A DNA stretch of 64,000 bases from the NCBI GenBank assembly GCA_026182355.1, contig JAPFBL010000001.1, positions 2,353,501 through 2,417,500 on the forward strand. The letters run 5' to 3'. Position numbers and translations under genes: made by a program. Numbering within the stretch: the stretch's first letter is position 1; the number at the start of each line of letters is the position of its first letter. Positions 1 through 54,710 of the stretch are shown in pieces. The stretch is from Hermatobates lingyangjiaoensis. Taxonomy: Eukaryota > Arthropoda > Insecta > Hemiptera > Hermatobatidae. The notes under the pieces were generated by a model. That model did no database searches. It saw only the letters and a program-made list of their open reading frames with translations, and had not been told where the DNA came from.

Positions 1-218
1 AGAAATCAGAAGAACACACTTACAGTCTCTAATTTTCGGTTTGAACCGTCTTCAGGAGAGATAAGAGAGGGAAACCAAGCGCACTGGATCAGAGACGGTT
101 GGAGACGGTTGGGTCTCCAACCGTCTCTGATCCAGTGCGCTTGGTTTCCCTCTCTTATCTCTCCTGAAGACGGTTCAAACCAAAAATTAGAGACTGTAAG
201 TGTGTTCTTCTGATTTCT
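1..218. repeat. Perfect-type inverted repeat of PLE family B ends
   Basis: Two arms of about 106 bp (1-106 and 113-218) are reverse complements, with a 6-bp spacer at 107-112. Each arm is the terminal part of one repeat family (called B here), seen again at 19458, 20940, 21500 and 33150. The left arm read on the minus strand holds an intact hammerhead-like core (26-59). In the right arm the GAAA of that core has become AAAA. The outward ends run into (TA)n. I infer a fold-back copy of a Penelope-like terminal repeat, because the same 3' module follows a GIY-YIG reading frame in families E and F elsewhere in the window. Confidence 0.75.
26..59 (-). ncRNA. Hammerhead ribozyme-like motif, family B
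   Basis: Read on the minus strand: stem I UCUC pairs with GAGA. The core is CUGAAGA, followed by one extra C. Stem II is GGU/ACC with loop UCAA, then GAA. The palindrome AAUU forms stem III (A15.1-U16.1 and A-U), H17 is A, and stem I closes. This is the order of a type I hammerhead with a minimal stem III. GTAAGT follows a few bases after stem I. Activity is inferred; the fold is read directly from the sequence. Confidence 0.6.
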
Positions 219-244
219 CTATGTTTCTTTGTTTATATTGAACT

Positions 245-270
245 ATATATATATATATATATATATATAT
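245..270. repeat. (TA)n microsatellite
   Basis: Uninterrupted TA dinucleotides between the family B fold-back and a family A PLE end. PLE ends in this window nearly always abut such tracts. Confidence 0.95.
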
Positions 271-391
271 GAGTCGGGTTTTTACTCTGACGACAACCGC
301 TTGTTACGGTTGAAAGATATTGGTCTTGTTTTCGTATTTCATAGTGTGGTTTGATCATTGATTGTTAATTTACGTGTTTATGTGAAATCTT

Positions 392-395
<4 letters not shown>
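271..395 (+). repeat. PLE family A terminal fragment
   Basis: A 125-bp copy of a module found about a dozen times in the window. It contains a CUGACGA core at 287-293, a stem-loop, GAAAG, then a tail ending in a TTTCACGTG-type motif and TATGTGAAA before (TA)n. In this copy stem I and the stem III palindrome are degraded (AGATAT instead of AGATCT). The best copy is at 54573-54615. Confidence 0.65.

Positions 396-462
<67 letters not shown>
392..462. repeat. (TA)n microsatellite
   Basis: About 70 bp of nearly pure TA, with one C interruption near its left end, between a family A end and the 466-941 inverted repeat. Confidence 0.95.
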
Positions 463-465
<3 letters not shown>

Positions 466-466
<1 letters not shown>

Positions 467-941
467 AAAAATCTGACCATATCTTGTTGAAACTTGCTTC
501 TTATTAAGTTTTTCAAGTTTTCTAAATAGAGTTCTTGTCACTATATCCACAGTATACAATATTCTTCCGATAGTCGACATGTTACATGAGTCCATGTTTT
601 TGCTGCCCTCAGCCATTATCAAGACATAAATGAGTTTTGAAATAATTTGTTCCTTTATATAAGAAAAGTAAAATTCGTTGAGAAGGTTGGGGGATTAAAG
701 TTAACTTTAATCCCTCAACCTTCTCAACGAATTTTACTTTTCTTATATAAAGGAACAAATTATTTCAAAACTCATTTATGTCTTGATAATGGCTGAGGAC
801 AGCAAAAACATGGACTCATGTAACATGTCGACTATCGGAAGAATATTGTATACTGTGGATATAGTGACAAGAACTCTATTTAGAAAACTTGAAAAACTTA
901 ATAAGAAGCAAGTTTCAGCAAGATATGGTCAGATTTTTAAC
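466..941. repeat. Inverted repeat with about 237-bp arms carrying a PLE-like N-terminal frame
   Basis: The arms 466-702 and 703-941 are near-perfect reverse complements meeting at AAAGTT|AACTTT with no spacer. Both arms encode the same short reading frame, pointing outward. Such a spacerless fold-back cannot be two independent insertions. It suggests either a snap-back reverse-transcription product or an assembly/amplification inversion. The flanks are (TA)n followed by family A PLE ends on both sides. Confidence 0.8.
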
Positions 942-956
942 AATGTATGTTTATAG
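789..956 (+). pseudogene. Short N-terminal ORF, probably from PLE family A
   Basis: From the ATG at 789 the frame reads about 55 residues, beginning MAEDSKNMDSC and including RKLEKLNKKQVSARYGQIF, before a TAG. The mirror copy in the left arm has the same protein with a few substitutions (GSKN for DSKN, STRY for SARY), so the frame has been kept in both arms. The basic RKLEKL stretch resembles the leading part of PLE reverse-transcriptase ORFs. That resemblance is weak and the assignment rests mainly on its position between family A ends. It is truncated before any RT motif, so no activity is expected. It could also be unrelated DNA captured by the fold-back. Confidence 0.35.
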
Positions 957-981
957 GATTGACTGCTACCAAAATTTACAA

Positions 982-1211: not shown

Positions 1212-1349
1212 TATTGAATTCAATTTTATCATATATTAAAGTTTTTTTTATATTTATGTTGTTACTATTTTCTTTTGTTTCTTCTTCTTCTTCAATTATT
1301 CTTAGTACTTTTTTGGTTTTCGTTGTGGTCATAGGGCACATATTTTGAA

Positions 1350-5963: not shown

Positions 5964-6193
5964 TTTCTTCTTCTCAAGATTTGGTCAAGGTTAGTTAGTA
6001 GTAACTACCAACGTTTCGTCGATATTTCAAGACATCTTTAGAGCTAAAAAACAATTATCCATTGTTTTTTAGACAAGACAATTGTCCATTGTATTTGGTT
6101 TTTAGCCCTGATGATGTCTTAAAATAAAAACGAAACGTTGAAAAAGAGGTGATGTTTACTAACCAACTCTGACTAAATCTCGAGAAGAAAAAA
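5964..6193. repeat. Inverted pair of PLE family H ends
   Basis: The outer arms (TTCTTCTCAAGATTTGG... at 5967 and its complement ending near 6193) are imperfect reverse complements. Each carries a module ending in CGAAACGTT. The plus-strand motif at 6104-6141 has CUGAUGA plus an extra U, a weak GU/AC stem II, GAA, palindrome ACGU and H17 U. The minus-strand partner at about 6010-6050 has CUAAAGA (G5 lost) but a good GUC/GAC stem II and the same ACGU. Confidence 0.5.
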
Positions 6194-7171: not shown

Positions 7172-7935
7172 ATGCCACCTAAGAAAAACACATTGGGCAG
7201 AAAATCCCCAGCTGCCTTGAGAAAACAACTCCAGAGGCAAAAAGAAACTGAGGAGCAAACATCACTTCGTCTTCAAGACCAAAAAGAAAGAAGTGCCCAT
7301 TTGAGAGAAAATGAGTCTCAGTTGCAAAGGGAAGAGAGACTTGAATATGTTAGAAATCGGCACGCCCAAGGAAGACTTCTTGAAACACCATAGAAACAAT
7401 CAGAAAGACTTCAATCCATGAGGACAAGGGCTGCCCAAAGAAGAGAGGATGAATCTGCAGTGCAGCAATCTGTCAGACTTCAGACAGAGAGATCAAGGGC
7501 TGCTGAAAGGAGAGAAAATGAAGCTCCAGAACAGAAGTCAGAAAGACTTCATTCTATGAAAACAAGAGCTATAGCCAGAAGAGAAAATGAATCTGTAGAA
7601 GCTAGGAATCAGAGGCACCAACAAGACCAAGCTAGAATAGCTAATCATCGCAATCAAAAAGTTAAGGACTGGAATTTAATGGCTTTTAATTATGATCCAA
7701 CACATAATTATGCCAATGAGCATTTTGTAAAAATAGGTGGTATGACTGTGAAGTGCAAAGTATGTGGTGCTTTAAAATGGGACCGTGAATCTGAAGGAAT
7801 TTGCTGTTCAAAAGGAAAAATTAGAATAAATCTCCTTAAAGAACCTCCTGAACCGCTTAAAGGACTTTTGATTGGAGAAACTCCAGAGTCCAAACATTTC
7901 TTGAGAAACATTAGAAGTATAATTGTGCCTTTCAA
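7172..7935 (+). pseudogene. Helitron protein N-terminal region, broken
   Basis: The frame opens at the ATG at 7172. Its first part is an Arg/Glu-rich tract with degenerate repeats of about 27-30 residues built on an RAxxRRENE...SxRL pattern, as in animal Helitron ORFs. An in-frame TAG at 7391-7393 interrupts it; the same frame continues at once with the next repeat. A zinc-binding motif CKVCGALKW...GICC follows (Cys at about residues 113, 116, 129 and 130 of the downstream part, counted from 7418), then the PPEPL and HFLRNIRS signatures. One base is missing near 7916-7918: restoring the phase gives the expected NIRSYNCAFQMCSFGS continuation, which runs into the helicase frame at 7936. The frame thus has two lesions. 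The Rep nuclease that should follow the SFG motif is absent. Confidence 0.85.
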
Positions 7936-9267
7936 ATGTGCTCCTTTGGTTCAGTTCAAAAGAATCATGGAGGCATTTTCTTCTTGGATGCTCCAGGTGG
8001 TACTGGGAAAACTTTTGTGACTAAATTGGTACTAGCTAAAGCAAGGCAGAAAGGAAGAATTGCTCTGGCTGTTGCATCTTCAGGAATAGCAGCTACACTT
8101 TTGCCTAATGGAAGAACAGCCCACTCTACATTCAAGCTTCCCATAGATTTGTCCAGTAATGAAAATCCTTTTTGCAATATTACTAAAAGTTCAAATATTG
8201 CTCAAGTTCTCAAAAAATGTAGTCTTATCATCTGGGATGAATGTACTATGGCACACAAGAAAGCTCTGGAAGCTGTTGATAGAACTTTGAAAGATATCAG
8301 AGAAAATGACTTGCCAATGGGAGGAATAACTTTAGTTTTGTCTGGTGATTTTAGACAAACTCTCCCAGTGATCCCAAAAGGTACAAAAGCAGATGAAATA
8401 AAAGCTTGCTTAAAGTCTTCAAGATTGTGGAGGAATGTGAAGAATCTTAAACTCCAAACAAATATGAGAGAATATTTGCAAAGAGACCGATTGTCTAAGC
8501 AATTTGCAGAAGATTTATTGGCCCTTGGAGGAGGAACTGCATCATTGGATAATGATGGTTTATTAGATCCATCAAGAATAAGTACAATAGTGAAAACAGA
8601 AACTGATCTGATTTGTAATGTGTTTCCAAATCTACAAGAAAATTTCAAGTCTGAGAAGTGGTTGTGTGAAAGGGCTATTCTAGCACCTCAAAATTCTACA
8701 GTGAATTCAATCAATTCTCAGCTAATTAATTCCCTGGAGGGAGGCACCATGAATTACAAATCTATTGACACTGTTATTGATCCAAATGAAGCAGTGAATT
8801 ATCCAGTTGAATTTTTGAATTCTTTGGAGATGTCTGGTCTGCCTTCTCATAAATTAGAACTTAAAATTGGTGCCCCAATAATGTTACTTAGAAATTTAGA
8901 TCCACCTAAGCTTTGTAATGGGACTAGATTTGTTATCAAAAAAATGATGCCTCATGTTATTGAAGCAATAATTCTATCTGGATGTGCAGCAGGAGAATCA
9001 GTTTTCATACCCAGGATACCAATATCACCAACTGATTCTGTAATTCAATTCAAGAGGCAGCAATTTCCAATAAAGTTATGTTTTGCCATGACTATTAATA
9101 AGTCTCAAGGTCAGACTCTGAAAGTAGCAGGCTTACACTTGAAAGAACATTGTTTCTCACATGGTCAACTTTATGTTGGCTGCTCAAGAGTTGGAATTAA
9201 ATCAAATCTGTTCATATATGTACCACAAGGCAAAACTAAGAATATAGTTTACAGAGAAGTATTGTAA
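7936..9267 (+). pseudogene. Helitron Pif1-type helicase domain, open frame of 443 residues
   Basis: SF1B DNA helicase, the C-terminal half of a Helitron RepHel protein, which unwinds DNA during rolling-circle-like transposition. Visible motifs: Walker A DAPGGTGKT (residues 18-26), SSGIAATLL (48-56), Walker B IIWDE (98-102), motif III GDFRQTLPV (137-145), motif V/VI region TINKSQGQ (386-393), and HGQLYVGCSRV (409-419). All helicase motifs look intact, which is notable in an otherwise broken element. The ATG at 7936 is internal to the ancestral frame (it is the Met of the CAFQM sequence), so it is not the original start. The residues before Walker A are much shorter than in full-length proteins; the NHGGIFFLD join marks the deletion that removed Rep and the start of the helicase. 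It might be expressed as a helicase fragment, but I see no evidence for that. Confidence 0.85.
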
Positions 9268-11225: not shown

Positions 11226-11239
11226 GGGGGGGGGGGGTA

Positions 11240-16554: not shown

Positions 16555-16850
16555 AATGAAAATACTAAACAGTCCAAAAATACTAAATAGTTTAAACCGA
16601 AAAGATAAATAAATAAAAAAGACAACACATAGAAGAAACGAGAAAACTTGCTGAATTGATATTTCGAACTGAAGTTCGTCGTCAGGAAGAGAGTAGAAGG
16701 GAAGAAGAAGAAGAAGAGGTACGTGCGTCACGTTCTTCGTGACGACATGACGACGAACTTCAGTTCGAAATATCAATTCAGTAAGTTTTCTCGTTTCTTC
16801 TATATGTTGTCTTTTTCATTTATATATATTTTAATTGTCGTTAATGTCAT
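16555..16850. repeat. Inverted pair of PLE family J ends
   Basis: The arms around 16595-16690 and 16740-16830 are reverse complements containing the GAACTTCAGTTCGAAATATC module. The minus-strand copy keeps the CUGACGA core; the plus-strand copy reads AUGACGA. The tail (AGTAAGTTTTCTCG, then a T-rich TTGTCTTTTT run) repeats in both arms. Between them lies a GAAGAAGAAG purine tract. Confidence 0.6.
16650..16692 (-). ncRNA. Hammerhead-like motif, family J
   Basis: The core is CUGACGA plus an extra C. Stem II is GAAC/GUUC with loop UUCA, then GAA, palindrome AUAU and H17 C. Stem I pairing is poor in this copy (first pair A-C), so cleavage is doubtful although the core is intact. GCAAGT or GTAAGT follows in the two arms. 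Confidence 0.45.
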
Positions 16851-21395: not shown

Positions 21396-21500
21396 ATATA
21401 TATAAATTAGAATTTTCAAAAGAACACACAGAAAAGAAATCACTGAACTCACTACTATATTTCGATGTCCTCGTCGTCAGGAATAGATGTGAATCGCTCC
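21396..21500 (-). repeat. PLE family E 3' end
   Basis: The minus strand matches the 3' UTR end of the coding copy at 34405-35245, including CGTCCTCGTCTTCAGG-like core sequence (here CCTGACGACGAGGACATCG) and AAATATAGTAGTGAGTTCAG. It is joined directly to a family B fragment at 21500. Confidence 0.65.
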
Positions 21501-21644: not shown

Positions 21645-21818
21645 TAAAAGAAACGGTCCAGCGGACTTTTTTAAATAAAATAAATTCAAAATGAAGGAGT
21701 CACCGCCCTGCCTTCCTGCGGGACTCTTCGCTCTTCACACGTCCTGATGACGACGATGGACGAAATATCGATGTGAGTTATGTCTGTGTCTTTCTGTGTG
21801 TTTCCTTCGTTTTGAATT

Positions 21819-22044: not shown

Positions 22045-22080
22045 GCTCTAAGGCCTTTCGTTAACACATCGTCAGAGAGC
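22045..22080 (-). ncRNA. Hammerhead ribozyme-like motif, best fold in the window
   Basis: In 36 nt on the minus strand: stem I GCUCU/AGAGC (five perfect pairs), core CUGACGA, an extra U, stem II GU/AC with loop GUUA, GAA, palindrome AGGCCU as stem III, H17 U, then the closing strand of stem I. Every core residue expected of a hammerhead is present. The two-pair stem II is short and the extra residue after A9 is noncanonical. The surrounding unit (about 22010-22092) ends in (TA)n on both sides, as PLE ends do here. Confidence 0.65.
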
Positions 22081-33964: not shown

Positions 33965-34180
33965 TTATTAAAAAAACGGTCCAGAGGACTTTTTTAAATA
34001 AAATAAATTCAAAACGAAGGAAACACACCACCACGAAGGCGGTGAGTCACCACCCTGCTTCTTGCGGGACTCTTCGCTCTTCGCACCTCCTGATGACGAC
34101 GATGGTCAAAATATCGATGTGAGTTATGTCTGTGTCTTTCTGTGTGTTTCCTTCGTTTTGAATTTATTTGTTTATTTATT
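33965..34180 (+). repeat. PLE family D terminal unit
   Basis: Same layout as 21642-21825: an inverted tail piece, TTCTTGCGGGACTCTTCG, a ribozyme-like motif at 34084-34121 and the GTGAGTTATGTCTG tail ending at a TTTA-repeat. Here stem II is a proper GAC/GUC with loop GAUG, but G12 has become A (CAAAATAT), and that loss should abolish cleavage. Confidence 0.7.
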
Positions 34181-34199: not shown

Positions 34200-34400
34200 T
34201 TGTAAAAGTTGGGAGCACTCATTCTTCAATACATGCTTTTAAAAACTGGATGTCTGTTTCCACTTGATTCAATTTCGTCTTATATTTTTCCAAATTACGA
34301 AATTTTACAAAAATTTTGTAATTTGGAAAAATATAAGACGAAATTGAATCAAGTGGAAACAGACATCCAGTTATGTATATATATATATATATATATATAA
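34200..34400. repeat. Hairpin of PLE family G ends plus (TA)n
   Basis: The arms 34240-34306 and about 34312-34375 are perfectly complementary (ACTGGATGTCTGTTTCC... TTTTTCCAAATTACGAAATTTT and its reverse). The same arm sequence borders the family G fold-back at 42612-43610. A (TA)n tract follows (34374-34399). Confidence 0.75.
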
Positions 34401-34402
34401 AG

Positions 34403-34971
34403 TTGTGAGGGAGTTTTTCCCTATACTTTCTTCTTCCTCCTGTACTTCTTCAGTCTTTAGTGAGGCACCTTCCATTTCCTATCGCAAACCTGCTAATCTT
34501 CAATCTATCTTCTCTCACATCTCTTCTCCTAAGCCTCCAAAACCTGCTGGTGGTATGGTTCAATCTGGACGTCGTGGATGTCTTACTTGTCCTATCATCA
34601 ATCCTGTTCCTTCCTTTAACTCTGTCCATAGTAAACGTACCTACCCTATCTCTCACAAGACCTCTTGTACCTCTGGTAACTGCGTTTACCGTTTGGATTG
34701 CACCCAGTGTGATTCTTTTTATGTGGGTTTGGCTTCCACCAAGCTAAGCCTGCGTATGAATAATCACAGGTCATCCGTTGGCAAACGCAGTGACCTTCCC
34801 GTGGCTACTCATGCCAGTTCCCACGGACTCAGTTTTAATGACTGTTTCCGTGTACAGGTCCTGAGGCAGATTGATCAGACTAATTCGAAAGTTACTCTGA
34901 GAGCTTCAGAAGAAGCACTTATTAGTCTTCTGGGCGGTAGACCGGCTCCTGGGCTTAACCTCAATCCTTGA
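34403..34971 (+). pseudogene. Penelope-like element C-terminus with GIY-YIG endonuclease, family E
   Basis: Open frame to a TGA at 34969-34971; the 5' side is cut by (TA)n, so no original start exists (the first codon is a GTG). About 188 residues are left of a PLE ORF, the linker plus the endonuclease that nicks target DNA for target-primed reverse transcription. Visible order: YRKPANL and a GRRGCLTC knuckle (Cys 59 and 62), then a Cys-rich start NCVYRLDCTQC (92-102, with the GIY equivalent CVY), YVG (106-108), LSLRMNNHRS carrying the likely catalytic Arg (117), ATHASSHGLSFND, and RASEEALISLL with the candidate catalytic Glu (169 or 170). No internal stop or shift is present, so truncation may be recent. 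The reverse transcriptase is wholly missing. The 3' UTR that follows carries the ribozyme-like motif. Confidence 0.85.
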
Positions 34972-35257
34972 TTTTTTTTTTTAAGTTGTTATCAGCTTTT
35001 AATTTTATTTTAGTTAAATGTTTTCATTTTTTAATTTTTATTTGGCCTTTATCTCTTTATCTTCCCTGTCTACCTTTTCTCCGAAAGTTGGCTACTCTGT
35101 TTGAGTGCTTCAGTTCGAACGCCAAGTCAGTCGTTATCAGCCTTTGGAGCGATTCACTTCTTTTCCTGAAGACGAGGACATCGAAATATAGTAGTGAGTT
35201 CAGTGGTTTCCTTTCTATGTGTTCTTTTTTAAAATCTAGTTTATATATATATATATA
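34972..35257 (+). other. PLE family E 3' UTR and terminus
   Basis: About 270 bp from the stop codon to (TA)n. It starts with a T-rich region, then AGTCAGTCGTTATCAGCCTTTGGAGCGATTCACTTC, the ribozyme-like motif (35152-35198) and a tail GTTCAGTGGTTTCC...TTTAAAATCTAG. The TTCACTTCTTTTCCTGA stretch is nearly the same in family F (39841, 44508), which ties the noncoding module to PLE coding sequence in two families. Confidence 0.75.
35152..35198 (+). ncRNA. Hammerhead ribozyme-like motif, family E
   Basis: Core CUGAAGA (35166-35172) plus an extra C; stem II GA/UC with loop GGACA; GAA; palindrome AUAU; H17 A (35190). Stem I has a G-C pair, an internal loop and then AGUGA/UCACU. GTGAGT overlaps the distal stem. 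It lies about 195 nt after the PLE stop codon. The weak stem II makes activity uncertain. Confidence 0.5.
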
Positions 35258-35945: not shown

Positions 35946-37254
35946 TGGAATAAAGATTCCTTGTTTCCATTAATGTTTATTTAAATTTACAAATGTCTAG
36001 ACTAATTTCCATTTATAAAATAGTTAACAGATCCTGATAGTTTACATAAGAAACAAGGTACACTGAATTCCAAGTCAAGCTTAAGTGAAAACTCACATTT
36101 GAATGTTAATAAAACCAGTATTCTGGGTAAACCATTATCGCAAAAAGATAGTTGAGTTGCTTGAATATCAGAACAGACTTGTTCACTGTCAATACTCCGA
36201 CTTTTGACAAAACATATTCTGTTACAAAAAAAGATATAACAAGTTCATGGATGTAGAATCAGAACTCAATGTGAGATCTTCCTAAAATGTTCTTTGGATA
36301 AAATAATTATCAGAGAATAACAAAATTAGAAAACAATTAAAAAAAATCAGAGTTTTGTAAAGCAATTTGAATAGTTAACTATTTTATTGTTAATTTGATT
36401 GTAAAAGTTACTTGGCATACTCGTATGTATATCATTTCTTTTTCACATCAATTAAGCTGAAGCTAAAGAAATAGATTGCATTATACCGCTAATATGTGCT
36501 GTTCAATTCAAAGTCAAAATAAACGCTTTATATATAACGTTAAAGACATATAACATGTAAAATGAAAATTAACTATAAATACTCGTCCACAAATCTGTCT
36601 TTACTTGTAAATTTTGGTACGATCTCAAGCAGTTAAAAAGCTAAGTAGACAATGAGAATTCATACATTTATAACACAATATAAGAGCCTCTTACTTATTT
36701 TAATACAAGGTAAAACAATTATATACATTAACTGAACCTGAATAGAGGTACATTTCAGCAACTATATGCGGGTGACTGCAATGCAGGCTTGTGACAATTT
36801 TTTTGCATACCGTTTCAGTTTACTGCGGCTGTTACTGCACTATACAAAGACTTATTATTAGAGCACTTCTATTTATAATGTTCAATTTTGTCAATATTAC
36901 CTTTATAAAAAAAATGTTGTGTAAAGAAAAAAGCTATGCACAGCAGCACCAACAATGCGATTGACTACGAAATAGGAAAACCTTAGGTAAAATTTTCACT
37001 GATTTCGTAAATTTTCAAAAAAATATACCATCAGAAGTTAATTTTATATTTTTTTTTTCAATAATAGAGTGAAAATATTTTTTTTTTAGAAAATGTTCAA
37101 TGTTTAAAAAGCATGAAAAACTACCTTGAAATATTTCAAAGTAGACAATTTGCAAGCAAACGGTATATATAATATGGTAACCTCAATCTGTATTACTTTA
37201 GTATCTAACTACTATAAAAATAATATTAATCACGTCTACTTCAACATGTTTAAT
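35946..37254. other. AT-rich DNA with no recognised feature
   Basis: Nothing recognisable. It ends at the left breakpoint of the segmental duplication. Confidence 0.55.
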
Positions 37255-38454
37255 TAAGTTTGTTTTTAAAACTCAGATGACCAAATAGGAAAAAAATTTT
37301 CATATTCAATGAAATTTCAGTTAATTTTAATAAACATTAATTTTATATAATTTTGTGTTTACACATTTTTTTAAAGCCATTTATTTCTAAATTGTTTAAT
37401 CTGATGATGTTTCAATAAATAGTTTACACTATTCTTTACTTATTTTTTAGTATTGTTTGGCATCTTAATTTTTATAAGGAAAATAATTTTGTTTTAAAGT
37501 AGTACTCAATGAGAGAGCTTTATTATGGGTTATTATTATCTGTAATAGTGATAAAAAATATTGCAAAGTTGGTCTTCCGATCTATAGAATAGATAATTAC
37601 TGCAGTATTGGATATGTAGCTTCTGATTGTAAAAATTAATATCATCCTTTTCTCTACTTCAATTTTTGTATGCTTATATTCTGTATGTATTTTAATTCCA
37701 TTCATGTTCACTAGTAACATAAAGATATACTATGTTGCGAACTTTAATTATTGCATAATTTGTATTTGTATAAACTTTTATTCAAAAATATTGTATTTTT
37801 CGAACATTAATATGTATAACAACCTGGTAATTTAAATAATTCAAAACTGAAGTTTTTTTGTTTTTTTTCGAATATTCAAGTAAATTTTAAGTGAATATTG
37901 GCAAACGAACAGAATGTTAAAATGATTAGAAATTAATCACCAAAAAGGAATTAATTTCTGAAGGAAACGCCTCGATTGCAGGTGAGGAACTAAGTGTGGT
38001 TGTCGCCGAGAGGCTGCTTTAGTACAGGATCCAATAACCAGTAAGTCCTGCCAAAAGAATTTCCCTCGGAATGTCTCCAATCATTCCTCCCTAACTCTGG
38101 AAAAATCCAATATCCTATTCTCTGAGACCCTTATATTTACCTGAATATTTCACTTTTATTGTATGCCATAGAATTCGAAGGTTTAGAAAGGAGAGTTTAG
38201 ATACCACAAGGAGATGGGCTGTCTCATACTTTAAAAAAATTCATGGATAAGTCATTCACTTACTTTTCAGCCTACCATTATTGACAAATATTAGCAAGTA
38301 GTCACTTAATTTTTGTCTATTACTGATTTTTGTAATGATAATTTAACCATAATGTATTACTCATACAAATTTTAATATAGAAATAAATCTCAGTAAACTG
38401 AAGCAAGTATTTCAATATCACATTACTTAATATTTACTGAATTGAAAGTTAAAA

Positions 38455-38457
<3 letters not shown>

Positions 38458-38509
<52 letters not shown>

Positions 38510-38660
38510 CAAACCAAAATATTTTCAACCGTAACAAGCGGTCTTTGTCAGCGTCTAAAATCCAGACTGCTTGTTACGTTTGAAAGATCTTAGTCTTTTT
38601 TTCCTATTTGATATTGTGGTTTGATCTATGATTGTTACTTCAAGTGCTTATGTGTAATTA
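38458..38660. repeat. (TA)n and PLE family A hairpin (copy 1)
   Basis: TA tract 38458-38507, then a minus-strand family A piece (38508-38550) and a plus-strand piece (about 38568-38655). The core region has been lost between the two arms, leaving only the stem II half and the GAAAGATCTTAGTC arm. Confidence 0.7.
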
Positions 38661-38742
38661 TATATATATATTTTCTACTTATATTAGCTATAAGTAGGAA
38701 AATTGTGAATGTAGAATCTGCTATCAAATTCAATATATATAT

Positions 38743-38782
<40 letters not shown>

Positions 38783-38916
38783 TATTATATAACCGAGAAA
38801 CTAACATAAAGGTGACATAAATTGAAAGGCCGCAGAGCATTTATTTCTATTGTTTTCCTTATTCCATTGAGTTAAAAGTTCATTGATTGCATCACGCGTT
38901 TATTATTGTGAATTCT

Positions 38917-38919
<3 letters not shown>

Positions 38920-38955
<36 letters not shown>

Positions 38956-39000
38956 ATATATATATATATATTATATATATATATATATATAATATATATA
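38920..39000. repeat. (CA)n followed by (TA)n
   Basis: About 32 bp of CA, then about 50 bp of TA with small interruptions. Copy 2 has the same start at about 42566, but a family G element has entered its TA part. Confidence 0.9.
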
Positions 39001-39150
39001 ATTCAAAACGAAGGAAACACACCACACAGAAATACACAGACATAACTCACATCGAAATATCGATGTGAGTTATGTCTGTGTCTTTCTGTGTGTTTCCTTC
39101 GTTTTGAATTTATTTTAATTAAAAAAGTCCGCTGGACCGTTTCTTTTAAT
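39000..39150. repeat. PLE family D hairpin (copy 1)
   Basis: The tail of family D is present in both orientations (39001-39056 and 39060-39115), meeting at ATCGAAATATCGAT, so only the part from the stem III palindrome outward remains. The 3' extension AAAAAGTCCGCTGGACCGTTTC is self-complementary (GTCCGCTGGAC). The core CUGAUGA is absent. Confidence 0.75.
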
Positions 39151-39217
39151 TGTATATATATATATATATATTATTATATATTTATTTCACTTAATTAAAC
39201 GAAACACGATCCAAACT

Positions 39218-39432
39218 GGATACAATACAAGTTCAAAATTCAAGAAGAGTAACACACAGAGTAAGGAAACACACTTACAGACTCAAATTTTCGGGTAAAT
39301 CCGTCTTCAAGAGAAAAGAGAAAGGGAGACCAAGCACGTTGTAGACGCAACGGCAAGTAACAGCAAGTAAGTATGTAAGTGTGTTTCCTTACTCTGTGTG
39401 TTACTCTTTTTGAATTTTGAACTCGTATATTA
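39218..39432. repeat. PLE family C inverted pair (copy 1)
   Basis: The minus-strand arm (about 39220-39345) contains the family C core, here CUUGAAGA with an extra base, and the plus-strand arm (about 39370-39432) contains only the AAGTGTGTTTCCTTAC tail. Between them lies GCAACGGCAAGTAACAGCAAGTAAG. Confidence 0.65.
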
Positions 39433-39489
39433 TATATATATAATAATATATATTAGATCACTTGTCCCCAGTGATATCTATTATCACTA

Positions 39490-39612
39490 TAGTGATATCT
39501 ATTATCACTTGTCCCCAGTGATAACAGACAAGTTACTTTAAAAGCTTCTGAGGAAGCCCACATTTGGCTCCTGGGGGCAAGCTCGAAACCTGGCTTGAAT
39601 TTAAATCGTTAA
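39490..39612 (+). pseudogene. PLE family F, last residues of the GIY-YIG ORF (copy 1)
   Basis: A frame ending at a TAA (39610-39612) reads QVTLKASEEAHIWLL, then GASSKPGLNLNR. It aligns with the family E C-terminus (KVTLRASEEALISLL, then GGRPAPGLNLNP), including the Glu-Glu of the endonuclease core. Everything upstream is lost; a short tandem TATCTATTATCAC duplication precedes it. It shows that the following 340 bp is a PLE 3' UTR. Confidence 0.75.
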
Positions 39613-39841
39613 TTTTTTTTAATATTTTTTATTCATTTTTTTTTAAAAAAATATTTTTTTTTAATTGTTTTATATATTTTCTTTATTTTTTCTTTTCTTA
39701 ACCTTTTTCTACCTTTCAAAAACATTTTTTTTATTTTTGTTCTCGACTTCCTAGTTCCTTTTTTATTTGTCTCCTTTGCGGCAGCACTGCTTTAGCCCTC
39801 ACCCAGTGAGTTCTTTAGTTGACTGTCGTCCCTCCGTCAAT

Positions 39842-39895
39842 TCACTTCTTCTCCTGAGGACGACCGCCATTACGGTCGAAATATTGAAAAGTGAG
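39842..39895 (+). ncRNA. Hammerhead ribozyme-like motif, family F (copy 1)
   Basis: Core CUGAGGA (39854-39860) plus an extra C. Stem II is five perfect pairs GACCG/CGGUC with loop CCAUUA; then GAA, palindrome AUAU and H17 U (39885). Stem I has GA/UC, an internal loop, then AAGUGA/UCACUU. Complete core and strong stem II; among the likeliest active copies. GTGAGT overlaps the distal stem I. Confidence 0.6.
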
Positions 39896-40076
39896 TCTTT
39901 GTTGTGTTTCTGTTTATGTGTCACTGCTTATTTTAATTGTATATATATATATATATATATTATATACAATTAATTATTATTATATACAATTATAGTATAT
40001 ATAATATATATATATATAGATGTATAATGTAATCGGGATTCGGTCAATTTTCCAGGATCAAAATCAAACTCTCAAT

Positions 40077-40731: not shown

Positions 40732-40948
40732 AAATAGATTAAATAACTCATCAAACCGTATGAAAAGACAGAATGCTTGTGTAGAACGTTGCTACAAGAA
40801 AACTTGTAAATTTCTGAAAGAACATAAGGACATTGTGGTTTGCAAAAGTGACAAATCTGGTAATACAGTGATAATGAAAGAAGCAGAGTATAAAGCAAAG
40901 ATGAAAACTCTATTGGAAGATAATGATACATACTCAATCACAAGTTAA
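40732..40948 (+). pseudogene. PLE reverse-transcriptase N-terminal fragment, family K
   Basis: About 70 residues including FLKEHKDIVVCKSDKSGNTVIM, EAEYKAKMKTLLEDNDTYS. This matches the region just before RT motif 1 in PLE proteins (FLK.N.D....ADKGN.TVIM....Y...M...L.D..TY). The Asp of the KSDKSG segment is present where ADKG is usual. The frame stops at 40946-40948 because the duplicated segment starts there. The opposite orientation to the 40457-40712 fragment suggests both came from one rearranged insertion. Confidence 0.75.
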
Positions 40949-42148
40949 GTTTGTTTTTAAAACTCAGATGACCAAATAGGAAAAAAATTTTCATATTCAA
41001 TGAAATTTCAGTTAATTTTAATAAACATTAATTTTAATATAATTTTGTGTTTATACATTTTTTTAAAGCCATTTATTTCTAAATTGTTTAATCTGATGAT
41101 GTTCCAATAAATAGTTTACACTATTCTTTACTTATTTTTTAGTATTGTTTGGCATCTTAATTTTTATAAGGAAAATAATTTTGTTTTAAAATAGTACTCA
41201 ATGAGAGAGCTTTATTATGGGTTATTATTATCTGTAATAGTGATAAAAAATATTGCAAAGTTGGTCTTCCAATCTATAGAATAGATAATTACTGCAGTAT
41301 TGGATATGTAGCTTCTGATTGTAAAAATTAATATCATCCTTTTCTCTACTTCAATTTTTTTATGCTTATATTCTGTATGTATTTTAATTCCATTCATGTT
41401 CACTAGTAACATAAAGATATACTATGTTGCGAACTTTAATTATTGCATAATTTGTATTTGTATAAACTTTTATTCAAAAATATTGTATTTTTCGAACATT
41501 AATATGTATAACAACCTGGTAATTTAAATAATTCAAAACTGAAGTTTTTTTGTTTTTTTTTTCGAATATTCAAGTAAATTTTAAGTGAATATTGGCAAAC
41601 GAACAGAATGTTAAAATGATTAGAAATTAATCACCAAAAAGGAATTAATTTCTGAAGGAAACGCCTCGATTGCAGGTGAGGAACTAAGTGTGGTTGTCGC
41701 CGAGAGGCTGCTTTAGTACAGGATCCAATAACCAGTAAGTCCTGCCAAAAGAATTTCCCTCGGAATGTCTCCAATCATTCCTCCCTAACTCTGGAAAAAT
41801 CCAATATCCTATTCTCTGAGACCCTTATATTTACCTGAATATTTCACTTTTATTGTATGCCATAGAATTCGAAGGTTTAGAAAGGAGAGTTTAGATACCA
41901 CAAGGAGATGGGCTGTCTCATACTTTAAAAAAATTCATGGATAAGTCATTCACTTACTTTTCAGCCTACCATTATTGACAAATATTAGCAAGTAGTCACT
42001 TAATTTTTGTCTATTACTGATTTTTGTAATGATAATTTAACCATAGTGTATTACTCATACAAATTTTAATATAGAAATAAATCTCAGTAAACTGAAGCAA
42101 CTATTTCAATATCACATTACTTAATATTTACTGAATTGAAAGTTAAAA

Positions 42149-42150
<2 letters not shown>

Positions 42151-42183
<33 letters not shown>

Positions 42184-42340
42184 CAAACCAAAATATTTTC
42201 AACCGTAACAAGCGGTCTTTGTCAGCGTCTAAAATCCAGACTGCTTGTTACGTTTGAAAGATCTTAGTCTTTTTTTCCTATTTGATATTGTGGTTTGATC
42301 TATGATTGTTACTTCAAGTGCTTACAAGTATGTGTAATTA
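42151..42340. repeat. (TA)n and PLE family A hairpin (copy 2)
   Basis: Same as 38458-38660, with a shorter TA tract and a small CTTACAAGTATG insertion in the tail. Confidence 0.7.
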
Positions 42341-42565
42341 TATATATATATTTTCTACTTATATTAGCTATAAGTAGGAAAGTTGTGAATGCAGAATCTG
42401 CTATCAAATTCAATATATATATATATATATATATATAACCGAGAAACTAACATAAAGGTGACATAAATTGAAAGGCCGCAGAGCATTTATTTCTATTGTT
42501 TTCCTTTTTCCATTGAGTTAAAAGTTCATTGATTGCATCACGCGTTTATTATTGTGAATTCTCTG

Positions 42566-42615
42566 CACACACACACACACACACACACCACACACACATA
42601 TATATATATATATAT
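42566..42615. repeat. (CA)n and (TA)n
   Basis: Counterpart of 38920-39000, split on the right by the family G element. Confidence 0.9.
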
Positions 42616-42821
42616 TCATATAAAAATATTTGTAAAAGAGTTGGGAAAAGTAGTCCCTTACAATTCAATACATGCTTTTGAAAACTGTATGTCTTTATCC
42701 ATTAGTTTAATATTTGTCTTAGTTTATTTTTTTTTTTTTTTTTTTTCCAAATTACGAAATTTTTTCTTCAACTCAGAACTCAACTTAAAAATTAATTCAC
42801 CATAATTTCTTATTTTATTAT

Positions 42822-42859
42822 TGAACATGTTTCGGTGTACGTTCACCATCTTCAGAAAA
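42822..42859 (-). ncRNA. Hammerhead ribozyme-like motif, family G (left arm)
   Basis: Minus-strand equivalent of 43432-43469. The core is CUGAAGA plus an extra U; stem II GGUG/CACC; GAA; palindrome ACAUGU; H17 U. Stem I is weaker here because the strand before the core is all U. Confidence 0.5.
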
Positions 42860-42931
42860 ACACACAATTAATTACAATTACCTTAACAAATGAATCTAAT
42901 AGTTAAATTACATTGCAAAAACAATAAGTGA

Positions 42932-43342
42932 CTGATTATAAGGAACCAGCATGAGAAGAAACAGCCGCTGAAACAAACGAACCTAGTATATGAGTTTCAA
43001 TGTCCACTGGGAAACTGTGAATTCCAAAAATACTCATATATAGGATCAACAACTACTACCCTTTCTAGGAGGCTGACGATGCATCTGGTTCCAGGAGCCC
43101 CCAAAGAACACTTCCAAAAGATTCATAAAACAAAAATTTCGAGGGAAACTATGGTGAATAATACTAAAATTATAGCAAAAGAAAAGGACGGAAGAAGACT
43201 CAGGATATTAGAAGCGCTGTTCATACTAGAAAAAGCTCCTAGCATGAACGATCAAAAAGGTAATTTTGCCAACCAGTTGCGCTTGTTTGGAAACCTAGGG
43301 CTAGTTATGCCAACACTGACAACCCCTAACCTGTCTGTGTAA
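42932..43342 (+). pseudogene. PLE GIY-YIG endonuclease fragment, family G
   Basis: Frame from CTG at 42932 to the TAA at 43340-43342, about 136 codons. It reads NLVYEFQCPLGNC (GIY equivalent LVY with two Cys), YSYIGSTTTTLSRRLTMHL (YIG plus catalytic Arg region), GAPKEHFQKIH, and ETMVNNTKIIAKE... RRLRILEALFI with the likely catalytic Glu, then KAPSMNDQ. This order is highly conserved in one PLE lineage, distinct from families E and F (TTTTLSRRL versus STKLSLRM). There is no internal stop. Upstream RT sequence is missing; the left side passes straight into the inverted arm. Any ATG, such as 43079, is internal. Confidence 0.85.
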
Positions 43343-43431
43343 CCTTCAGTTAACTTGTTCACTTATTGTTTTTGCAATGTAATTTAACTATTAGATTCAT
43401 TTGTTAAGGTAATTGTAATTAATTGTGTGTT

Positions 43432-43469
43432 TTGCTGAAGATGGTGAACGTACACCGAAACATGTTCAA
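43432..43469 (+). ncRNA. Hammerhead ribozyme-like motif, family G (right arm)
   Basis: Stem I UUG/CAA (three pairs, then a mismatch and one more A-U). Core CUGAAGA (43435-43441), extra U; stem II GGUG/CACC with loop AACGUA; GAA; palindrome ACAUGU (43460-43465); H17 U. It lies about 90 nt after the stop codon of the GIY-YIG frame. The core is complete. Confidence 0.6.
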
Positions 43470-43599
43470 TAATAAAATAAGAAATTATGGTGAATTAATT
43501 TTTAAGTTGAGTTCTGAGTTGAAGAAAAAAATTTCGTAATTTGGAAAAAAATATAAGACAAAATTAAATCAAGTGGAAACAGACATCCAGTTTTTAAAA

Positions 43600-43603
<4 letters not shown>

Positions 43604-43652
<49 letters not shown>
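43604..43652. repeat. (TA)n microsatellite
   Basis: About 48 bp of TA between the family G and family D ends. Confidence 0.95.
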
Positions 43653-43654
<2 letters not shown>

Positions 43655-43658
<4 letters not shown>

Positions 43659-43801
43659 ATTCAAAACGAAGGAAACACACAGAAATACACAGACATAACT
43701 CACATCGAAATATCGATGTGAGTTATGTCTGTGTCTTTCTGTGTGTTTCCTTCGTTTTGAATTTATTTTAATAAAAAAAGTCCGCTGGACCGTTTCTTTT
43801 A

Positions 43802-43832
<31 letters not shown>

Positions 43833-43858
43833 ACTGGCTATATATATATATATTTCAC
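43655..43858. repeat. PLE family D hairpin and (TA)n (copy 2)
   Basis: Same structure as 39000-39150, followed by TA runs with a central ACTGGC interruption. Confidence 0.75.
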
Positions 43859-43879
43859 TTAATTAAACGAAACACGATC

Positions 43880-44125
43880 CAAACTGGACACAATACAAGT
43901 TCAAAATTCAAGAAGAGTAACACACAGAGTAAGGAAACACACTTACAGACTCAAATTTTCGGGTAATCCGTCTTCAGGAGAAAAGAGAAAGGGAGACCAA
44001 GCACGTTGTAGACGCAACGGCAAGTAACAGCAAGTAAGTATGTAAGTGTGTTTCCTTACTCTGTGTGTTACTCTTTTTGAATTTTGAACTCGTATATATA
44101 TATATATATTATATATATATATATA
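43880..44125. repeat. PLE family C inverted pair and (TA)n (copy 2)
   Basis: Equivalent to 39218-39432. The minus-strand motif here is better preserved than in copy 1 (see 43950-43982). Confidence 0.65.
43950..43982 (-). ncRNA. Hammerhead ribozyme-like motif, family C
   Basis: Stem I CUC/GAG, core CUGAAGA, extra C, stem II GG/CC with loop AUUAC, GAA, palindrome AAUU, H17 U. GTAAGT follows after GTCT. Stem II is only two pairs, so stability is doubtful. Copy 1 has extra bases at the core. Confidence 0.5.
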
Positions 44126-44139
44126 AATATCACTTGTCC

Positions 44140-44283
44140 CCAGTGATATCTATTATCACTATAGTGATATCTATTATCAATTGTCCCCAGTGATAACAGA
44201 CAAGTTACTTTAAAAGCTTCTGAGGAAGCCCACATTTGGCTCCTGGGGGCAAGCTCGAAACCTGGCTTGAATTTAAATCGTTA
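44140..44283 (+). pseudogene. PLE family F, last residues of the GIY-YIG ORF (copy 2)
   Basis: Identical in reading to 39490-39612, ending at the TAA at about 44281. It is a duplicate made by the segmental duplication, not an independent insertion. Confidence 0.75.
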
Positions 44284-44507
44284 ATTTTTTTTTTAATATT
44301 TTTTATTTTTTTTTAAAAATATTTTTTTTAATTGTTTTATATATTTTCTTTATTTTTTCTTTTCTTAACCTTTTTCTACCTTTCAAAAACATTTTTTTTA
44401 TTTTTGCTCTCGACTTCCTAGTTCCTTTTTTATTTGTCTCCTTTGCGGCAGCACTGCTTTAGCCCTCACCCAGTGAGTTCTTTAGTTGACTGTCGTCCCT
44501 CCGTCAA

Positions 44508-44562
44508 TTCACTTCTTCTCCTGAGGACGACCGCCATTACGGTCGAAATATTGAAAAGTGAG
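44508..44562 (+). ncRNA. Hammerhead ribozyme-like motif, family F (copy 2)
   Basis: Same sequence as the motif at 39842-39895, with C3 at 44521: intact core, five-pair stem II, AUAU, H17 U. Confidence 0.6.
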
Positions 44563-44622
44563 TCTTTGTTGTGTTTCTGTTTATGTGTCACTGCTTATTT
44601 TAATTGTATATATATATATATA

Positions 44623-44940
44623 TAAGTATAAATTGCCTGCAAATTTTCTTTCAAACATATTTTATTGAAGTATACGGCAGCTTCCGCATTCACTACCTTT
44701 ATACTGGATTGCTCTAGTCTCCTGGCTATTTTTCATTGCGTTGAGGGAAGTTTCCAAAGAAGTTGTCCTAAAGATATATTAAAAACACTTTTGTCACAAT
44801 AACTTGCTTAAGTAAACCTTACTCTCTATATATTTTTTTAAATATTTTTTTAGTTTTTTTTTTAACTTTCACTGCAACTACTGTATATTATCTTATTGTG
44901 TTATCATTACCTATTTTCTTTGTCAATGTTAATAAAAAGA
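44623..44940. other. AT-rich DNA with no recognised feature
   Basis: Lies right of the duplication breakpoint. Nothing recognisable. Confidence 0.5.
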
Positions 44941-45060
44941 AGTCTCGAGAGATATATAATAAACAGACAACAAGGAAATACACAATAGAATACAGAAATA
45001 CTCACAACGATAATTTGACGGTCAGCATCATCAGAAACTGAAGTGAACAGATAGATAAGA
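44940..45060 (-). repeat. PLE family I terminal relic
   Basis: On the minus strand: TTCACTTCAGTTTCTGATGATGCTGACCGTCAAATTATCGTTGTGAGTATTTC. The CUGAUGA core and the GTGAGT downstream hexamer are recognisable, but stem II and the GAAA are eroded (GUCAAAUUAU). The tail ends in a TATATATC sequence. Confidence 0.45.
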
Positions 45061-48240: not shown

Positions 48241-48249
48241 GGGCAAAAG

Positions 48250-50480: not shown

Positions 50481-50494
50481 GCAGTGTCAATATT

Positions 50495-51660: not shown

Positions 51661-51828
51661 TATATGTATATATATAAACGGTGTCGGTTACTAGCCGTTG
51701 CGTCTACAACGTGCATAGTCTCCCTTTCTCTTTTCTCCTGAAGACTGATTGCAAGAGAATTTGAGTTTGTAAGTGTGTTTCTTTACTTTGTGTACTATCT
51801 ATATCTATCTATCCTCAATTTTGAACTG

Positions 51829-51874
<46 letters not shown>

Positions 51875-51892
51875 TTGTGTGTGTGTTTTTCA
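51661..51892 (+). repeat. PLE family C end followed by (TA)n and (TG)n
   Basis: Plus-strand family C module from CGGTTACTAGCCGTTGCGTCTAC through CTCCTGAAGAC and GAATTTGAGTTTGTAAGTGTG, with a tail ending at TTTTGAACTGTTA. The stem II and GAAA part is eroded (TGATTGCAAGAGAATTT). A TA tract (51830-51857) and a TG tract (51857-51890) follow. Confidence 0.65.
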
Positions 51893-53255
51893 TGTGTGTA
51901 TTGAACGTGCTTGTTCATTGTTTAGTATGTTCCACGTGTGGAAGTGGCTGGAAAGTACACAAAAAGTACACAAAAATTGCAAGCCATTTTACGCCACTAT
52001 CTGACTTATTTAGGTTGCAATCATAAGAGGTACAAAGACTTTATCAAGGTTTCAACATAAGTTCAAGGCATTTGTGCAACGTGCGCTGCCCGCAAGGAGA
52101 AATGTTAATAGACTCTACTATCTTCTAGAGTCCAGACGTTTCTTATATTGACACAAAAGTCTATGTATGCCGTTATGTATTTCATGAATAACTAAACATT
52201 TTGCATTACCCAATTATTGTAGCTGATATTGGTCACAATCATACTTTTTGTTATTATTTGTACTGTGTAAAAGATATTTGTTTCCTACTTTGAAATGTTT
52301 ACTTTATATTGGTATAGATTGGTTTCACTTTTCATTTAAATATGTCAGTCACTTCAGATAAATTCATTAATAATTAATAATTAATTCTTCTCAAGTTTGT
52401 ACTAACTACGTGTTAAAAATTACAAAAACGCTGTATCCGGAATTTCTGGGTTATTATGTGTTTTATTCAAATATACATGATAGAAAACGGTAATATTTTG
52501 AAAGCATTAAGTACCAGAAAGATCCTACAATTTTGTTTCTCTGATTCCTTGAACCAAATTTTCCAATTATATAACTGATTTCTTCATGTTTAAAAACAAC
52601 TTAAACAAGCACGTAGTACTTTGTATAAAGGCTATTATTACAATTTTTTAATCATAACACTTTAGTTTCTAAAAATATAAGGATTATTTTTTTGTTTTAG
52701 AATTTAAATTGCAAGAAATGGATAGTAAAAATATTTTTTAAGTATTACTTCTGATTATATTCAAATATATTTGAATAAATAAGGTTAACTTTAAAGAAAA
52801 GAATACTGTTGGATTTTTTTGTACGATTACGATGTAGCGCATTAAACTTAAATGAATCTAAAGAGAGTTTGGAAGTCCATCATAAAACAATTTTAAATTT
52901 TGGATAATTGCAGAAATTCTTATTAGTATTTGATACAGGATACTATTCTGCAAATAATTACGTAAAAAATTAAACTTTCTTCTAAATTGTTGTTAATATA
53001 ATGTATATTACACTAAACTTTATATTACTGGCGAATTTAATAAATGCTACACCCACCATCGTAGTAAAGAAAATGTAAAACGCTGAAATAGGGATAAGGT
53101 ATAATATTTTTGCTCTGTAAACAGCGGAGTGAAATATAGTAGAATTGAAGAAATAGTGAGAGTGAGAATAAGAAAGGTCATATTTGAGATGGAGGCGGTA
53201 AAACAGATCATGAATAATAGAATAGCGGTAGGGCATGATGGAAAGACATTTGGGC
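51893..53255. other. AT-rich DNA with no recognised feature
   Basis: Short frames only; the cysteine-rich frame at 51775 is a microsatellite artefact. A mildly GC-rich patch lies near 52070-52110. Confidence 0.5.
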
Positions 53256-53650
53256 CTGGGGATGATTGCGGTGTCATGTGGGAGGGTCGGGGGTTAATGT
53301 AGTCGACACGGGCTCCCTGTTCGACCTGGCAGTGGCCATTAACCCTTACGCAGTCTGCTCAAAAACTGTCAAATACCAGGCCGCGACTTAAGCCCCGCAT
53401 AATTCAACAGAAAAAAAAACCTAACTCGCATTAATAAATCACTCTTTTCTTCCTTATAAAGGCACACCTCTGTTTCCTGGCGTCATCCATCCCAGGCTCG
53501 ACACCAACCACCTGTAAACTACATCTCAACCCCTGTACCGTCCAACAGCCACAACGCAAATTCAAATAAAGAAATATAAACATCGCGAAATAGACATCTC
53601 TCTTTGACGTTGACTTCGAAACCACCAAATCCCTAAATGGACACTTCAAA
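53256..53650. other. GC-richer island
   Basis: About 390 bp with CG-rich left part (GTCGACACGGGCTCCCTG) and C-rich right part. Frames on the minus strand have no recognisable domain. Confidence 0.35.
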
Positions 53651-54039
53651 CATTTCAGGTTTTTTATTACCGATTTAAAATAGTTATAGTAAATGAGTCA
53701 CGACATTCACTAGATTCCAATGAGTTGTCAAACACATGAGTTGTTAAAATATAAAATGCATAATGTCATTTATATTTTGGAGTTCATTATAAGGTTTTTT
53801 GTTATAAAAGCGATAGATTCAACTACTCCACCAAAAACAATTCACTTAAATAATATAAAATTGGTAAACGTTCCGGCCAACATTATTAATTCAAACATGT
53901 GTGCAATTAAGAACAACAGTATTTGTAGTCATAAATAGGAACATAAGGTTCTTTGTTTTTTTTTTATATATTGTTTAAACCGATCACCTAGTGGGTGATA
54001 ACATCAGTCGTATACCGGCTTTTTGTTTGATCGGTGATT

Positions 54040-54280
54040 CTACATTGGGCAACTACAATTTTGCGTAACTCAAGTGCATTTCGAAAAATGATCTTTAACG
54101 AGAACCTGACATACCGGCACGAGACCGATGACTTAACGTTCTCTCTGATGGACGACGTACTCAGATTTATTCACAACCTGCGTGAATACATCGAGGACCA
54201 TTTGGGAATCAAACCCCGGACTACTAGCCCAGAGGTGAGTACGTTAAACATTGAGGTAACCTGGTCCCCGTTTGTGTTTC
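54040..54280 (-). mobile_element. tRNA-derived SINE, copy 4
   Basis: From AACGAGAACCTGACATACCGG (about 54098) to CCTGGTCCCC (about 54268), matching copy 1 base for base over long stretches, including GATGACTTAACGTTCTCTCTG. On the minus strand the B box reads GGGTTTGATTCCC (about 54205) and the A-box region reads GGTTACCTCAATG. The 119-residue plus-strand frame across it is a by-product. Confidence 0.65.
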
Positions 54281-54522
54281 TTAAAAATCGGCTGAAACAA
54301 AAACGATATTATATAATAAAGATTAAAAAATTATATGGCATAGATGAATTGTCATTTATGTCAGCAATATATGGCTTCTGGGACCATTTGTGATTTCTTG
54401 ATCTCTCTATTTCATCACCACTCCAGACCTTTTTATTGTACTATCTTCTGTAGATGGCAAAACAAGGACAGATATTCATGGATGATTAATGGTGATTTTT
54501 ATATTTCATAAATACAACTTCA

Positions 54523-54552
54523 ATATATATATATATATATTATATATATAAA
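54523..54552. repeat. (TA)n microsatellite
   Basis: TA tract abutting a family A PLE end. Confidence 0.9.
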
Positions 54553-54710
54553 ACCAACTCACTTGGGTTTTTGACTCTGACGAAGACCGCTTGTTACGGT
54601 TGAAAGATCTTAGTCTTGTTTTCCCATTTCTTATTGTGGTTTGATCATTGATTGTTATTTCACGTGTTTATGTGAAATCTTTTTATATTATATATATATA
54701 CTATTTTTCT
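54553..54710 (+). repeat. PLE family A terminal unit, best copy
   Basis: Full-length module in single orientation: an AACTCACTTGGGTTTTTGACT lead, the ribozyme-like motif, then the tail TTTTCCCATTTCTTATTGTGG, TTTGATCATTGATTG and TTTCACGTGTTTATGTGAAA, ending at TA repeats. It is the reference for about a dozen copies in the window. No coding sequence is attached. Confidence 0.75.
54573..54615 (+). ncRNA. Hammerhead ribozyme-like motif, family A (best copy)
   Basis: Stem I GACU/AGUC (four perfect pairs). Core CUGACGA (54577-54583), extra A. Stem II is GACCG pairing with CGGUU (first pair G-U) around loop CUUGUUA. Then GAA, palindrome AGAUCU (54605-54610) and H17 U (54611). All core residues are intact. 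A G-U at the first stem II pair is less stable than the usual G-C. Confidence 0.6.

Follow-up and report, generated by a model that had tools for sequence, protein, structure and literature searches.

We analyzed a 64,000-nucleotide stretch of the genome of the hemipteran Hermatobates lingyangjiaoensis (contig JAPFBL010000001.1 of GenBank assembly GCA_026182355.1, forward-strand positions 2,353,501 to 2,417,500; hereafter the window), which carries hammerhead ribozyme motifs at the ends of Penelope-like elements. We observed a hammerhead fold whose core holds one extra nucleotide and which is linked to coding ends of a GIY-YIG-like type, an insertion beside (TA)n, and an empty site. The motifs, grouped into eleven families (F1 to F11), are listed below in window coordinates, with stems in base pairs (bp), distances in nucleotides (nt) and residues numbered by hammerhead position.

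26..59, minus strand: F1 hammerhead, extra C after A9, predicted cut after A17
156..195, plus strand: F1, second arm of the head-to-head palindrome 1-218, G12 replaced by A
280..326, plus strand: F8 copy with an extra C
6009..6140: decayed head-to-head pair of F11, with a core at 6108 on the plus strand
16652..16693, minus strand: F9, core intact, stem II of 5 bp, stem I unpaired
16748-16774, plus strand: truncated F9 partner, head-to-head with 16652..16693
21449..21488, minus strand: second copy of F4
21736..21776, plus strand: F2 hammerhead, one mismatch in stem II
22045..22080, minus strand: F3 hammerhead, extra U, stem I of 6 bp, stem II of 2 bp, stem III AGGCCU
34082..34122, plus strand: second copy of F2, G12 replaced by A
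35152..35198, plus strand: F4 hammerhead downstream of the open reading frame (ORF) at 34348..34971, internal loop in stem I
39279..39318, minus strand: F6 copy with a mutated core, duplicate of 43947-43985
39842..39895, plus strand: F5 hammerhead, stem II of 5 bp, duplicate at 44513-44559 (plus strand)
42819..42863, minus strand: F7 hammerhead at the inverted 5' end of an insertion
43427..43471, plus strand: F7 hammerhead, extra U, A9-U-G10.1 reading AUG, predicted cut 26 nt from its A
43947..43985, minus strand: F6 hammerhead
45002..45042, minus strand: F10, decayed
51730..51768, plus strand: F6 copy with a decayed stem II
54573..54615, plus strand: F8 hammerhead, extra A, stem II of 5 bp, stem III AGAUCU

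An earlier note on this DNA had proposed that at least ten unrelated families share one hammerhead order, and in all eight segments that it listed CUGANGA is indeed followed by stem II, then by GAAA, then by a strand that pairs again in stem I. When a descriptor required one extra nucleotide following A9, with at least 4 pairs in stem I and at least 2 in stem II, 12 sites in the window fitted it, from seven families (F1, F3, F4, F5, F7, F8 and F11); 300 dinucleotide shuffles averaged 0.10 sites and never gave more than 2. With zero, two or three extra nucleotides the descriptor returned 4, 1 and 3 sites, respectively, and two of the four zero-extra sites were the F8 sites again, read with just 2 stem II pairs. 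A stricter version, asking for 3 or more pairs in stem II and 4 or more in stem I, returned 2 sites with the extra nucleotide and none without it. As for the segments put forward as best members, the order holds in all of them, but several are weak: F2 has an A-A mismatch within stem II, F3, F4 and F6 have just 2 contiguous stem II pairs, and stem I has an unbroken run of 3 pairs in F6 and F7. The figure of ten families is reached only by counting F9, which has almost no stem I, and the decayed F10 and F11, and is otherwise lower; F2, F6 and F9 combine a readable core with a mismatch or a weak stem.

The complete core (C3 U4 G5 A6 N7 G8 A9, G12 A13 A14, A15.1-U16.1 and H17) is present in 9/9 representatives, one per family, which were picked by the core motifs themselves. 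All nine readable families carry an extra nucleotide between A9 and G10.1. Six of the nine have C at this place, two have U and one has A; the decayed F10 and F11 have U. Since position 10.1 is G in all nine representatives, and 11.1 is C in eight and U in one, the extra base is a true insertion before the usual first pair. These hammerheads therefore depart from the canonical type I consensus, in which 10.1 follows A9 without an intervening nucleotide. A15.1 through U16.1 form a self-complementary segment in all nine families, so that stem III is diminished and dimers are possible. The earlier note had overlooked the extra nucleotide.

Across families, stems I and II are paired with changes on both sides, except that F9 lacks stem I. 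In a strand-swap test of nine families (20,000 permutations), stem I formed 29/36 pairs compared with 20.1 after swapping (P 0.00035) and stem II formed 30/36 compared with 21.4 (P 0.0002). Over 24 covariance-model matches, pairing was 76.8%, compared with 62.1% in shuffled and at most 46.5% in slid sequences, in rows that extend to an E value of 0.8, of which 23 are distinct, that likely include chance matches, and whose alignment is model-fitted. In addition, 64 distinct genomic cores formed 107/128 pairs at 10.2-11.2 and 10.3-11.3, compared with 62.9 after swapping (standard deviation 4.3, maximum 80 in 5000 swaps); these cores fall into 27 groups by extra base and by stem II start and length, and are a non-random sample drawn from the first 100 listed genome places, all on contig 1 and six of them inside the window. 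Covariation between families, which the earlier note had read in the differing stems, is thus supported and recurs in places elsewhere in the genome. A purpose-built covariance model, trained on eight sequences, listed 16 sites with E below 0.01, every one from the training families. Of the held-out families, F8 was recovered at E 0.074, F10 at 0.61 and F7 at 0.68-0.73, and F3 and F11 were not listed at E up to 5; a model of eight sequences thus recovers held-out families poorly.

The families did not all prove to be unrelated: the 55-nt tails of F1, F2, F4, F5, F6, F9 and F10 are linked with pairwise z scores of 3 to 6, moderate values that may reflect composition, because the tails are U/G-rich and were compared with mononucleotide shuffles. 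Judged by these tails, the families would represent about five lineages.

The 5' splice-site consensus GTRAGT lies 3 to 6 nt past the predicted cut in 6/11 families (F1, F2, F4, F5, F6 and F10; about 0.05 expected), at 21744, 35166 and 39854 and, on the minus strand, at 43977, 55 and 45034, each with its 3' side. Since all six belong to one tail-related group, GTRAGT may represent one inherited event. The plus arm of F9 has GTAAGT as well.

The following rows connect the hammerheads to Penelope-like coding sequence.

34348..34971, plus strand: C-terminal Penelope-like ORF fragment with a sub-cut-off Pfam GIY-YIG match, ending about 195 nt before C3 of F4
39520..39612, plus strand: remnant of a Penelope-like ORF C-terminus upstream of F5, reading DNRQVTLKASEEAHIWLLGASSKPGLNLNR and then a stop; second copy from 44192
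42601..43613, plus strand: F7 element insertion of 1,013 bp, consisting of an inverted hammerhead end, a GIY-YIG fragment, a hammerhead end and a tail
42932..43342, plus strand: GIY-YIG fragment of the F7 element, sub-cut-off in Pfam, 46% identical over 134 amino acids to the fragment at a second genomic locus, L055

Three families, F4, F5 and F7, each lie behind a putative GIY-YIG-type C-terminus, and at L068, a genomic locus with an F5 copy, an ORF ending 256 nt before the ribozyme is 65% identical over 138 amino acids to the F4 ORF. A search of a protein collection for relatives of the ORF at 34348-34971 returned none at E 0.001, in a search that needs shared 5-residue words, and none was found in IMG/VR. 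The window also contains a local duplication (37254-39957 and 40945-44624) that is 97.1% identical (2,624/2,701 aligned positions), and the 1,013-bp F7 insertion, which sits in a TA tract, is missing from the paralogous copy near 38953, leaving an empty site; the insertion borders are blurred by CA/TA repeats. The coding ends and the empty site support the Penelope-like origin that had been proposed.

From the predicted cut to the next TA tract, the tails measure 44 nt in F3, 51 in F4 (two copies), 54 in F2 and F5, 67 and 99 in F6, 77 in F8, 105 in F9 and 135 in F7. As exceptions, F1 exits the window and one F2 copy has no TA tract until 260 nt; no TA tract was seen after the tails of F10 and F11. 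In 30 genomic loci, some of them overlapping, (TA)5 occurred within 225 nt downstream of 39/51 cores (52 were found, one of them too close to a locus end), compared with 11.2% of random window stretches.

Many hammerhead ends in the window are inverted repeats. Among 25 pairs of neighboring cores less than 2 kb apart, taken from 100 listed genome places of a pattern with stem II fixed as GAC/GTC, 19 were head-to-head, 4 tail-to-tail and 2 on the same strand; among 20 pairs less than 1.2 kb apart from the 30 loci, with overlapping loci counted twice, these numbers were 17, 1 and 2. L055 carries a second tail copy with an altered ribozyme start on the same strand, upstream of its GIY-YIG ORF, and direct pseudo-long terminal repeats (pseudo-LTRs) therefore occur too. 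Penelope-like elements are recognized by pseudo-LTRs of which one copy is inverted, by a tail and by an AT-rich target site, all of which were found here. The ends also agree with the Penelope elements of Adineta, described as having pseudo-LTRs, inverted copies, junction palindromes and tails (PMC3846280).

Examination of the whole genome (909,949,117 bases, window included) for the core pattern with the extra place (CTGANGANGN{6,16}CGAAA) gave 143,250 matches and 615 for its reversed control; the pattern without it (CTGANGAGN{6,16}CGAAA) gave 2,470 matches and 572 for its control, and some of the no-extra places listed are evidently G-type members of these families. When stem II was fixed as GAC/GTC, the counts were 28,299 with the extra place (control 0) and 23 without it (control 2). 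Among 100 listed places of the main pattern, the extra base was C in 54, U in 36, A in 10 and G in none; it was G in 2 of the 100 places listed for the GAC/GTC pattern. The exact pattern, which misses F8 because its position 11.1 is U, matches 12 places in the window, a set different from the 12 descriptor sites, compared with 10.1 per 64 kb predicted from the genome mean. The locus is therefore typical for this genome, and the suggestion that it forms an unusual, natural ribozyme library does not hold.

The axolotl genome is far larger than 0.91 Gb, and the variants of Lunse et al. reportedly number about 150,000 over many genomes. The match count in the 0.91 Gb searched here exceeds the 126,247 motifs of axolotl, the largest count met in the literature as available to us, in which Acropora millepora has over 6000 motifs in 16 families (PMC7229834). 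The accessible portions of three papers describe thousands of such hammerheads in animal genomes, and minimal type I hammerheads without helix III, possibly cleaving as dimers, in Penelope-like elements (PMC6155905, PMC7761336, PMC7229834). Compared through such citing papers, the minimal type I Penelope hammerheads (Cervera and De la Pena 2014; Lunse et al. 2017) resemble those described here in their common core, the lack of a proper stem III, their place in pseudo-LTRs, possible dimer cleavage and many families per animal genome, and may differ in the extra nucleotide between A9 and G10.1, which is fixed here. No statement of such a nucleotide in Penelope-like hammerheads was found in the portions of the literature at hand, which does not establish its absence from print. 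With about 140,000 core matches that depart uniformly by one nucleotide from the canonical consensus, this one 910-Mb genome offers a very large natural alignment bearing on the role of the extra nucleotide, the tolerance of C, and cleavage versus the start codon. Worth keeping are the constant presence of the extra nucleotide, the number of matches across the genome and the overlap with the start codon in F7 and L055.

The insertion point is identical to that in the (+) hammerhead of chrysanthemum chlorotic mottle viroid (CChMVd), where an additional A10 between A9 and G10.1 brings a moderate loss of trans cleavage; according to the part of that paper available, U at this place raised trans cleavage 3-4-fold, and C and G were harmful (PMC3705267). 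The base order here is C, then U, then A. In IMG/VR viral contigs, 15/19 matches with the extra base adopt a complete hammerhead fold (contigs L001, L004, L006, L008, L010 and others), the base being U in each of the 15, and so do 14/24 matches without it; 1/43 were complete with a short stem III alone and 29/43 when a full stem III was allowed. The extra base is thus natural elsewhere and optional there, since complete folds occur with and without it, and the viral hammerheads differ from those in this genome in having a full rather than a diminished stem III.

In PAc, the Poseidon element of Anolis carolinensis, the ORF is reported to start where stem II does, with C3 and G8 ahead of the start codon and the cut 26 bp downstream (PMC11167929). 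F7 and L055 resemble PAc in a start codon at the stem II edge, in C3 and G8 before it, in a cut predicted 26 nt on, and in the AT-rich site and tails. In the inverted copy of F7 the frame from the AUG formed by A9, the extra U and G10.1 reads on to SSELKKKFRNLEKK, and L055 has the same layout with MTGSQSKHVGYNLINILQRLDEGKKKVFRNLEK. Here, however, this arrangement was seen in these two families only. Among the genomic rows, taken one per distinct 20-residue start, L055 is the sole one in which an AUG at A9 opens a long frame. In the U-type copies at L048, L064, L066 and L075 a stop closes the frame within 2 to 6 codons, the third codon of F3 in the window is a stop, and C-type copies and A families have no AUG at A9-extra-G10.1. 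A general reading of the extra nucleotide as part of a start codon is therefore rejected for most copies. On an unlikely account, which we offer tentatively, the extra nucleotide is fixed in Penelope-type hammerheads because A9-U-G10.1 serves coding copies as the ORF start. Cleavage 26 nt further on, assisted by protein, would in that case part the start codon from its message and so switch the RNA away from translation, towards packaging or insertion. Families with C or A at this place would descend from coding copies, retaining the core but neither the AUG nor a coding function.

We consider it very likely that the window holds minimal type I hammerheads with one extra nucleotide in the core, located in the terminal repeats of several Penelope-like lineages and in short, mostly head-to-head derivatives of them. 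We infer that stems I and II of the element RNA would fold within each copy and that the self-complementary stem III, presumably too short alone, would lead two copies to pair and be cut after H17, probably with assistance from the element protein. This protein would nick a (TA)n tract, where reverse transcription may start downstream of the cut site; such priming would leave tails of 44-135 nt, and self-priming or template switching could give rise to the head-to-head copies. For PAc, the text of PMC11167929 at hand describes a ribozyme that needs protein in vitro, internal priming and AT-rich targets, with cleavage not needed for insertion; protein help is shown for that element, and for the families of this genome it would be a putative likeness.

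Several results weigh against this interpretation. The covariance-model check that had been set beforehand as a refutation test failed with the stock models: the Rfam hammerhead models gave no match in the window, whether at the gathering cut-off or at E up to 10, so that all of its hammerheads were missed. RF00163 gave no hammerhead match on the genome, in a search that scored 73/122,588 candidates and in which the control genomes were silent too. The extra nucleotide in the core is likely one reason for this silence. The strongest Rfam rows in the window were microRNA models on long palindromes, which is explained by a near-perfect palindrome of 129 bp at 34244-34372, where two F7 tails lie head-to-head without a ribozyme. 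Moreover, the Pfam GIY-YIG matches are sub-cut-off (E 0.0035 to 0.032), with none for L055; no reverse transcriptase is present among the window's four ORFs of at least 150 amino acids, no dedicated reverse transcriptase search having been made; and the empty site could in principle represent a loss instead. In addition, many copies in the window have core lesions, and C, the commonest extra base here, is reported as detrimental at this place in CChMVd (PMC3705267). Finally, minimum-energy folds of the monomers contain stems I and II together in just 2/9 families (F1 and F8); a need for a partner or protein would predict this, yet is not proven by it.

The decayed cores and stems of several copies, together with the insertion of PAc cleavage mutants in vitro (PMC11167929, as available), could also mean that the motif is kept only as a transposon end, for protein binding or priming on DNA or RNA, its ribozyme function being gone. 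We regard this as unlikely, since conservation falls on the residues of the hammerhead core, and differences between families in one strand of a stem are matched in the other. Still less probable are non-autonomous retrozymes with canonical type I hammerheads, moving via circular RNA: many copies are indeed short and lack an ORF, and the accessible part of PMC7229834 reports that retrozymes and Penelope-like elements coexist in animals, but it describes metazoan retrozymes as tandem repeats of 150-450 bp. Same-strand neighbors made up only 2/25 and 2/20 pairs here, and F4, F5 and F7 adjoin coding ends. A chance meeting of CUGANGA and GAA with short stems in repeat-rich, AT-rich sequence, for which the Rfam silence might speak, has virtually no probability, being refuted by the shuffles and by the reversed-pattern genome controls (0, 2, 615 and 572).

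Elsewhere in the window, a second near-perfect palindrome at 450-955 has 253-nt arms that are 98% identical, with no spacer, and no match from the purpose-built hammerhead model. On the plus strand, 7394-9267 is a PIF1-type helicase ORF (Pfam PF05970, E 1.6e-64), preceded by STPR repeats; its named relatives among the 120 matches listed are from animals, and we take it to be Helitron-like.

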